From Pseudomonas benzenivorans (GTDB lineage: Bacteria; Pseudomonadota; Gammaproteobacteria; Pseudomonadales; Pseudomonadaceae), in assembly GCF_900100495.1 (NCBI RefSeq), contig NZ_FNCT01000001.1:248001-312000 (forward strand): a stretch of DNA of 64,000 bases, read 5' to 3'. The position numbers and the translations under genes were made by a program. Shown in pieces: positions 46,399 to 53,137 of this stretch. Positions within the stretch are counted from its first letter, which is position 1. Each line of letters opens with the position of its first letter. A model generated the notes under the pieces. It ran no database searches. It was given only the letters and a program-made list of their open reading frames with translations, and was not told the DNA's origin.

Positions 46399-46405
<7 letters not shown>
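46227..46405. repeat. GTAGGGTGGA element flanked by 23-base direct repeats
   Basis: An element of about 130 bases (46253-46382) starts GGTAGGGTGGAATCGCCGCA and ends GCTAATCCACCCTACT, with internal 15-base perfect inverted repeats CCGCCGTTTACCGCG / CGCGGTAAACGGCGG. It is flanked by direct copies of ACCTGATGTTCGTCGCTT(G/A)GTAG at 46227-46249 and 46383-46405. The right copy contains the metH stop codon. It resembles the shorter copy at 15807-15894. Confidence 0.8.
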
Positions 46406-50109
<3,704 letters not shown>

Positions 50110-50244
50110 GGGAACTACCTGGGTATGCCGGAAACGGGAGGTCGGGGATGATAGCAAACCTGCGCGGTTTCGGAGCGGACCGCGCTTTTGCATGAATTAT
50201 GCTCATGTTGCCGTGAGCAACACGCTTTCCCAGGAAGATGGGTG

Positions 50245-50775
50245 CTATCCGAGATCGAACGCGGCGGCGCCTTTCCGTTCCTGCGCTATCTGGCGGCTCT
50301 GAGCGTGGAAGTGCTTGTAGACCCAGCGTCGACAGTTTTGGCACGGCGCGTTGTAAACGACTCCGGTGCCTTGCGCGTTCCAGTTGAAAGGTACGAGGAC
50401 CCATTCGGCGATACGGTGCTTCAGCTGTTCCTTCAGGAAAAAATACATTTTCGGTTCTGCGCAGTTCATGGCTCCGCGGCCATGGATATCGAAGCCTTTC
50501 TGGTGGATCTGTTCGTGCGAAAACTCTTCCGCTTGAAGAAAGACCTGAATCGCATGGGTGATCCGTTGTTGGGCAGCAGCTTTATCGATCGCCATCGTGG
50601 AACAGAGCGAACTGGTCAATTCGCGGTAGCCCAGTGCACCGGATAAGAATGCATGGTGTTCCCCCGTCGGGATATGGATGGCTACGACGCACACGGCGTC
50701 CGAATTGCGGGCCTTCTCGTTCTCCTCGAATTTCTGTGTCGCCAACTCCGCAGCTTGGTCGTAGAGGCTGGTCAT
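50245..50775 (-). CDS. Putative deaminase-fold zinc protein of unknown role
   Basis: A 176-residue protein starting MTSLYDQAAELATQKF with GGGAGA upstream. It shows the two signatures of the cytidine deaminase superfamily: C105-A-E107 followed by PKM and a helix, and P144-C145-QN-C148 followed by a helix. A predicted beta-hairpin (AVCVVAIHIPTGEHHAF) precedes them and a strand (EWVLVPFNW) sits between, matching the fold order. The CAEPK form resembles polymorphic-toxin deaminases. No signal peptide. Sampled GC is near 50-57%, below neighbouring genes. No immunity-like gene is adjacent. Lies between metH and cti, where PAO1 has tse1/tsi1 as I recall. Activity is inferred from motifs only. Confidence 0.7.
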   Translation of the reverse strand: MTSLYDQAAELATQKFEENEKARNSDAVCVVAIHIPTGEHHAFLSGALGYRELTSSLCSTMAIDKAAAQQRITHAIQVFLQAEEFSHEQIHQKGFDIHGRGAMNCAEPKMYFFLKEQLKHRIAEWVLVPFNWNAQGTGVVYNAPCQNCRRWVYKHFHAQSRQIAQERKGAAAFDLG

Positions 50776-50860
50776 TTGGGCATCTCCCTGCGTTATCCGA
50801 TTTCTTCTTCCGGCTGAACTGCCGTTAGGATAGACAACCTTTCCCGGCCCAGAGATCGTC

Positions 50861-53137
50861 ATGTCGTATCGCGTATTCGCCAGTGCCTTTCTTTTTTTGT
50901 GTGGCGCTGCGCATGCCGAGCCGATTTCCTACACCCGCGACATACAACCGATCTTCACCCAGAATTGTGTGGCCTGCCATGCCTGCTACGACTCGCCATG
51001 CCAGCTCAACCTGGGCAGCGGCGAAGGCGCCGCGCGGGGGGCCAACCAGCAGCCGGTGTACGACGGCACGCGCACCCAGGCCGCGGCAACCACGCGCTTG
51101 TATCTCGATGCCCACGGCAGCGACGCCTGGCGGCGCAAGGACTTCTTCTCGGTGCTCGAGCCGCAAGGCAGCCAGGCCGCGTTGATGGCGCGGATGCTCG
51201 AGCTGGGCCACGACCGGCCATTCGCCGCCAACGCCAAGCTGCCGGATGACCTGGAGATCGGCATCAAGCGCTCCAACCAGTGCCCGCTGCCGGATGAGTT
51301 CGCCACCTTCGCGCGAAAGAACCCGCGAGCCGGCATGCCCTTCGCCGTCACCGGGCTCAGCGATGCGGATTACCAGACCCTGCAACGTTGGCTGGAGGAG
51401 GGTGCGCCAGTCGACCGGCAGGCGCTGCAAGCCAGCAAGGTCGAGGCCAAGCAGGTTGCCGCCTGGGAGCAGTTGCTGAATGCGCCAGGTGCGCGTGAAA
51501 ACCTGGTGGCGCGCTGGCTGTATGAGCATCTGTTCCTCGCCCACCTGTACTTCGAAGGCGGCGAGCCTGGGCATTTCTTCCAGGTGCTGCGCTCGCGCAC
51601 CCCCAGTGGCCAGGCGGTCGACCCGATCGCCACGCGGCGGCCCAATGACGATCCCGGCAGTACCTTCTATTACCGTCTGGCACCGATCCAGGGCGTGATC
51701 GTGCACAAGACCCACATCACCTATCCGCTCAGCCAACGCAAGCTGGCACGGGTCAAGGAACTGTTCTTCGCCAGCGCCTGGCAGGCGGAGGCGGTGCCCG
51801 GCTACGGCGCCCAACGGCGTGCCAACCCATTCGAGACCTTCGCGGCGATCCCGGTGCAGGCGCGCTACCAGTTCATGCTGGATAACGCCGAGTACTTCGT
51901 GCGCACCTTCATTCGAGGTCCGGTTTGCCGCGGGCAGATCGCCACCGACGTGATCCGCGACAATTTCTGGGTGCTGTTCCAGGATCCACGCCACGACCTG
52001 TATGTGACCGATGCCGAGTACCGCGCCGCGGCGACCCCGCTGCTGGCCATGCCCGGCCAGTTCGACGACATCGGCGACCTGTTCGGCCTGTGGCGCAGAT
52101 ACCGCAACAAGCGCAACGCCTATGAGGCGCTGCGCATGGACAGCTATGCCGAGGCCGCGGCGCCCAGTTGGTCGCATATCTGGGCCGGCAACGACAACGC
52201 CCTGCTGACGATCTTCCGCCAGCACGACAGCGCCTCGGTGCGCAAGGGCCTGATCGGCGAGATCCCGCAGACCCTCTGGTGGATGGACTACCCGCTGCTG
52301 GAACGCACCTACTACCAGTTGGTGGTGAACTTCGACGTGTATGGCAACGTCTCCCATCAGGCGCAGACACGGCTGTACTTCGACCTGATCCGTAACGGTG
52401 CCGAGGTCAATTTCCTCCGCCTGATGCCGGCAGAGGTACGCGAGGGCTACCTGAGCGACTGGTACCAGCACAGCGGCAAGCTGAAGCTGTGGCTGGACTA
52501 CCAGGGCATCGACAGCCAGAGTCCGACGGCCCTGCAACTGCCTGGCCGCGATCACAAACGCAGCTTTGCCGAGGCGTTGTTGCGCCGCTATGACACGCTC
52601 AACGCTCGCCCCGATCCGATCAACCGCTGCAACGGCACGCACTGCTACAGAGACGGTTTGCCGGCCGAACTGCAGCGGGCCGAACAGGGCCTGAGCCGCC
52701 TGGCGAGCAAACCGGCCAGCGCGCTCAGGGTGATCGAGCAGTTGCCGGAGGCGACCCTGCTGCGCGTCGAGCTGGCCGATGGCAGGCGCGAGGTCTACAG
52801 CCTGCTGCGCAATCGCGCGCACAGCAACGTGGCCTTCCTCCTCGGCGAGCACCTGCGCTACCAGCCGGCACTGGATAGCCTGACGGTCTATCCGGGCGTG
52901 CTCAGCAGCTATCCGAACTTCATCTTCAGCCTCGGCGCCGACGAAGTGCCGGCATTCGTCGCTGCCTTGGAGCGGGCGCGGGATGCCGGGACCTTCGAGA
53001 AGGTCGTCGAGCGTTGGGGCATTCGCCGCACCCATCCCGAGTTCTGGCGGCATTTCCATGACCTATCGGCGTATATCCGGGAAACCGAGCCGATCGAGGC
53101 GGGGGTACTGGATATGAACCGATATCAGAACCTGTGA
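50861..53137 (+). CDS. cti: Fatty acid cis/trans isomerase Cti
   Basis: A 758-residue periplasmic c-type cytochrome-like enzyme. The signal peptide is [19 protein letters not shown]. The haem c motif CVACH is at residues 36-40 just after it. It converts cis-unsaturated membrane fatty acids to trans forms during solvent or heat stress in Pseudomonas, without ATP or new synthesis. It faces the deaminase-fold gene head to head over 85 bases and precedes nfuA, as in PAO1. Confidence 0.92.

Follow-up and report, generated by a model that had tools for sequence, protein, structure and literature searches.

The window, a stretch of 64,000 nucleotides from Pseudomonas benzenivorans (contig NZ_FNCT01000001.1), harbours a small gene, here P0001, which is located between metH and cti and whose product is predicted as a zinc deaminase of the cytidine/blasticidin-S type. 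P0001 starts with ATG, at a position common to its relatives. It is poorer in GC than its neighbours, as the original prediction had stated, with 55.9% compared to 65.6% in metH and 65.0% in cti, and the GC content at third codon positions is 0.68, 0.93 and 0.84, respectively. The promoter scan could not detect a sigma-70-like promoter in positions 50000-51000. No gene of the immunity type was found beside P0001 either, in agreement with the original prediction; the same-strand open reading frames (ORFs) of at least 40 aa within 400 bp are metH itself and shadows of cti. The features of the locus are collected in Table 1.

Table 1. Positions of the features at the P0001 locus in the window, and their evidence
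Feature	Position	Strand	Evidence
P0001, deaminase-like gene (176 aa), clade A member of an unnamed four-clade family	50245..50775	-	Open frame; homologue-supported start; AlphaFold2 model matched with VIA-align
Codons C105-A106-E107, predicted zinc ligand and catalytic glutamate, helix start	50455..50463	-	Invariant in 38/38 rows; helix 106-117 in model
Codons P144-C145-Q-N-C148, predicted zinc ligands, start of helix 146-155	50332..50346	-	P144, C145, N147 and C148 invariant in 38/38 rows; model
Shine-Dalgarno-like AGGGAG	50784..50789	-	Read in sequence; 8-base spacer to ATG
metH, cobalamin-dependent methionine synthase, left border, 135 bp gap	46399..50109	-	Pfam Met_synt_B12, S-methyl_trans and others
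cti, fatty acid cis/trans isomerase, right border, divergent, 85 bp gap	50861..53137	+	Pfam CTI, E 1.4e-289

The CAE and PCxxC motifs named in the original prediction are present in P0001, as CAE at residues 105-107 and PCQNC at residues 144-148. C105, A106, E107, P108, K109, P144, C145, N147, C148 and R149 are invariant in all 38 aligned members of clade A, P0001 included, and CAE and both cysteines of the second motif are invariant across 14 rows spanning the four clades of the family. The first cysteine is missing from P0060, a remote row. Structure prediction, which had been proposed as a check, gave P0001 a deaminase-like core (pLDDT 92.5) with blasticidin S deaminase as the best match by VIA-align. 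In the models of clades A and B, CxE and PCxxC lie at the starts of the helices that follow strands 2 and 3 of an alpha/beta core, and two clades have their best structural matches in blasticidin S deaminase and in cytidine deaminases acting on free nucleosides. Foldseek searches of the viral library gave no match at E <=0.001, and searches of the PDB by sequence alone found nothing relevant.

Similar to blasticidin S deaminase and the tetrameric cytidine deaminases, P0001 carries both motifs in register and follows the same order of helices and strands until the PCxxC helix, and to this point the deaminase fold order of the original prediction stands in the predicted models. Beyond it the order does not hold, as strands 4 and 5 are missing: no strand of at least 3 residues follows the PCxxC helix in the models of clades A and B, while a five-strand core is stated as a deaminase feature in the available text of PMC7901873. 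P0001 also differs from these enzymes in a 60-residue linker, which joins strand 2 to the CAE helix and contains three helices, and in the short tail after the second cysteine, which is helical in the model and has a median of 27 residues (18-42 in 38 rows) compared to 39-49 in ten cytidine deaminases. The two missing strands, and the incomplete motif of P0060, would suit a zinc-binding accessory or structural protein devoid of deaminase activity and kept for another role. This reading appears very improbable against a catalytic glutamate and three cysteines that are invariant in every clade-A row. Deaminase-type chemistry is the best-supported part of our interpretation.

Pfam, NCBIfam and PADLOC provided no convincing family for P0001 (best Pfam E 0.1), and the single match in PHROGs is of function unknown (E 0.07). 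Among the 38 clade-A members, the cytidine deaminase models of NCBIfam had no match above the curated cut-off (best E 0.059 for NF009076 in one member and 0.081 for NF004064 in five), and dCMP_cyt_deam (PF00383) stayed below cut-off with E 0.2 in one member. The Pfam families of polymorphic toxin deaminases, including YwqJ, SCP1.201 and BURPS668_1122, had no match, and P0001 possesses neither the N-terminal trafficking domain nor the adjacent immunity gene that serve as a criterion for such toxins. Stray NCBIfam matches to single members, the best of them to a beta-lactamase model (E 1.6e-4), were taken as chance. No description of the clade-A family was found in the openly accessible literature, a search which did not cover subscription papers, the 2011 deaminase survey included. 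The family of P0001 is treated here as unnamed and rare.

The protein search led to 11 accepted relatives out of 39 candidates, and with an alignment to 38 out of 1059 (P0001 counted), which constitute clade A. The search from two remote relatives (32 accepted out of 2223) revealed two more clades, B, mostly with NCAES, and C, with CAEAH; clade A aligned to B and C with an hhalign probability of 97.5 (E 6.7e-12). Clade D, which comprises three rows, two of them near-identical, aligned to clade A with a score of 51.8 (P 1.2e-7), compared to 24.5 for the best of 60 shuffles. Alignment A4 against cytidine deaminases scored 27.0, with a probability of 13.5%. The shuffle controls belong to two comparisons only, alignment A2 against cytidine deaminases and clade D against A2. 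In a tree of 55 out of the 60 rows, leaving out P0044 (near-duplicate), P0058 (partial), P0060, P0036 and P0031, support was 94/91 for A, 100/98 for B, 100/97 for C and 99/95 for D, and A and B were split from C and D with 95/89. The original prediction had connected the CAEPK form with toxin deaminases. This was not reflected in our comparison, made within the family and not including the toxin families, where CAEPK marks clade A and the clade linked to type VI secretion, D, carries CAEA. All 38 members of clade A are standalone proteins of 175-193 aa. The protein search admits only lengths of 0.55-1.75 times the query; the open frames of the six-frame genome matches are also just 190-276 aa.

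With the clade-A profile, bar one remote match, the window's own genome was the only one matched among 398 from the genus; because of this rarity, the housekeeping role that the original prediction had left as an option is unlikely. The same profile matched 1 of 369 genomes of the class, again the window's own only, and among 197 genomes of the Dyella family it matched Dyella choica besides one remote match, and the gene was rejected as a housekeeping gene. The four-clade profile (E up to 0.01) detected 5 genomes in an equal-size draw of 398 from the genus, and the three-clade profile 2 of 398 genomes from the phylum. A clade-B protein is encoded in the same-genus genome G331, and it shares 99% identity with a protein assigned to Pseudomonas sp.

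Neither 50,697 phage records nor pattern scans of viral contigs revealed a relative of P0001, and its reading as a phage gene was rejected. Its reading as a plasmid gene was rejected as well: the only plasmid match for P0001 is a 784 kb record of Eleftheria terrae, a soil carrier, and one query each from clades B, C and D had no match in plasmid records. In the Eleftheria terrae locus (L005 7675-11745), a DUF1266 gene and two same-strand ORFs lacking a Pfam family above the cut-off precede the relative. A remote relative with CAE and PCDNC, in genome G362 (L080 1354-1875), lies between two integrase-like ORFs, as read from the translations. A deaminase role on nucleic acids within the producing cell, such as the DNA or RNA of phages or plasmids, is improbable for P0001. 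Besides the lack of relatives in phage records and viral contigs, its isoelectric point of 7.1 and the missing PADLOC match speak against this role, and the PADLOC matches among the 38 members comprise three families, all unrelated and each matched by a single member. The defence-like role considered in the original prediction thus gained no support.

The site between metH and cti was compared in same-genus relatives. Thirty-five of them had a metH match, and the 29 with loci were read. In 23 out of the 29 the starts of metH and cti are only 152-293 bp apart, and in one, G013 (locus L043), the order is metH-tse1-tsi1-cti (Tsi1 Pfam E 1.5e-48, Tse1 PDB match E 1.2e-52). Both the variable character of the site and the presence there of tse1/tsi1, which the original prediction had named for PAO1, were therefore encountered, the latter in this one relative. 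The G013 pair occupies the same chromosomal site as P0001. Tse1 differs in being an amidase with an immunity gene, and no sequence relation to P0001 is claimed. Three out of the 29 relatives (L019, L020 and L042) have an acyltransferase adjoining metH and no cti in ~11 kb, and two have neither cti nor an acyltransferase beside metH. The three acyltransferases are 69-78% identical, and PF01757 was checked on that of L042. A block 5' of metH, GCATGAATTATGCTCATGTT at 50190-50209, keeps CATGAA in 11/11 and TCATGTT in 10/11 aligned relatives, and we take it to resemble a MetR-type operator. Seen from metH, P0001 sits beyond this conserved block.

The genome of P0001 possesses genes for type VI secretion on the same contig, approximately 180-192 kb away, including VipB, Hcp, a ClpV-type ATPase and a type VI FHA protein. 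VipB was present in 5/5 tested genomes holding a family member, a count without a background rate for comparison. In all three Pseudomonadaceae genomes with clade-D relatives (G1033, G133 and G114), these are located between clpV and vgrG, and in G133 the gene adjoins a vgrG 5' remnant.

This slot is also that of Tsd2 (PA14_33980), which the available text of PMC9846239 presents as a candidate deaminase effector of the H3 type VI system, encoded between clpV3 and vgrG3. According to the same text, Tsd2 carries CxE and PCxxCR, has blasticidin S deaminase as best match and lacks an immunity gene, and its authors hence predicted that it acts on eukaryotes. As far as that text describes Tsd2, P0001 resembles it in the CxE/PCxxC motifs, the blasticidin S deaminase match and the missing immunity gene, and clade D in the position, whereas P0001 itself is located at the metH-cti site. 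The likeness is drawn from the slot and the published motif description, not from sequence; the corresponding motif is PCxNCR in clade A and PCxNCQ in clade D.

SsdA and DddA are, similar to what is proposed here, deaminase-type enzymes tied to type VI secretion. DddA is the C-terminal toxin domain of a large protein with an immunity partner. SsdA, in the available text of PMC7901873, is likewise the C-terminal toxin domain of a large protein, with an immunity partner and a five-strand core; P0001 differs as a lone protein of 176 aa.

The gaps between ORFs in the slots of G1033 and G114 are ~45-127 bp, and therefore leave no room for a further gene. The adjacent ORFs in the slots, of 171 aa and 143 aa, are conceivable partners. 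The 171 aa ORF, found in G1033 (L068 6081-6596) and G133 (L078 838-1353), contains GHGS and AACEVG motifs that, judged by sequence, look caspase-like; neither copy had a Pfam match, and the G133 copy had no match in the PDB. The 143 aa ORF of G114 (L082 10245-10676), deaminase-like with HAE and PCxxC (PF00383 E 3.8e-4, below cut-off), adjoins the CAE-type gene, and two deaminase-like genes thus lie within one clpV-vgrG slot. G133 (L078 2119-3171; L081) presents a vgrG 5' fragment, then a gene for an OTT_1508-like deaminase (E 1.4e-9), then a full vgrG, an order which looks like a recombination scar of a cargo slot. A 91 kb plasmid record of Pseudomonas aeruginosa (NZ_CP137515.1 23413-25959) encodes a tssH 89% identical to ClpV of G1033. 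Outside the window, same-strand ORFs of 56-95 aa at <=400 bp downstream of relatives (L002, L005 and L004) were considered as immunity candidates and judged to be fortuitous, as they adjoin or overlap other genes.

We tentatively favour P0001 as a deaminase that travels as type VI cargo and has no immunity partner over an intracellular deaminase of small molecules, while giving it somewhat less than an even chance. The original prediction had left toxin and non-toxin roles open, and the type VI link of the remote relatives shifts the balance to an exported enzyme without settling it. Two points weigh against export: relatives of VgrG, ClpV and Hcp were not found near five loci of clades A-C, and no binding between PA14_33980 and VgrG3 was seen in a pull-down, as given in the available text of PMC10442045.

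A solitary intracellular enzyme, likely horizontally acquired, may instead deaminate a small free compound, such as a nucleoside-type antibiotic or a modified nucleoside, in the manner of blasticidin S deaminase. This role is a serious possibility, nearly as likely as export. The CxE and PCxxC pattern is the same as in blasticidin S deaminase and the free-nucleoside cytidine deaminases, which are also the best matches of two clades, and the window without an immunity gene, the clades A-C without a type VI core gene nearby and the sporadic spread, with one carrier from soil, are consistent with it. However, clade D inside type VI clusters and tse1/tsi1 at the same site in a relative point away from a small-molecule role, and no biosynthetic or nucleoside-uptake gene was recognised nearby, where the neighbours were not systematically annotated.

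Under the favoured explanation, P0001 would likely leave the cell as a small cargo of the type VI secretion system of its genome, and in the recipient it would act on a cytosine-type substrate by deamination. As no immunity gene accompanies P0001, this substrate is presumably one that the producer need not protect. The missing immunity would fit a non-bacterial target, for example a soil eukaryote, as proposed for Tsd2, or a substrate present outside the producer only. Zinc binding, activity, substrate, export and target cell are inferred for P0001, and export is a reasoned bet, supported by the metH-cti site, by the type VI genes of the genome and by clade D. A wider scenario, which we consider rather unlikely as a whole, is that the four clades are minimal deaminases that lost strands 4 and 5 and bear their entire zinc site on a shortened core, that they spread as lone genes and are exported by type VI systems into neighbouring eukaryotes, which would make an immunity gene unnecessary throughout, and that P0001 took the slot of tse1.

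If active, P0001 would be a deaminase without the last two core strands, which bears on the minimal size of deaminases and on base-editing enzymes. Through the comparison, an orphan gene located at the tse1 site is also connected to Tsd2, a published but uncharacterised type VI candidate. Approximately 55 further database proteins are offered for asking whether immunity-free deaminases are a theme of type VI secretion.
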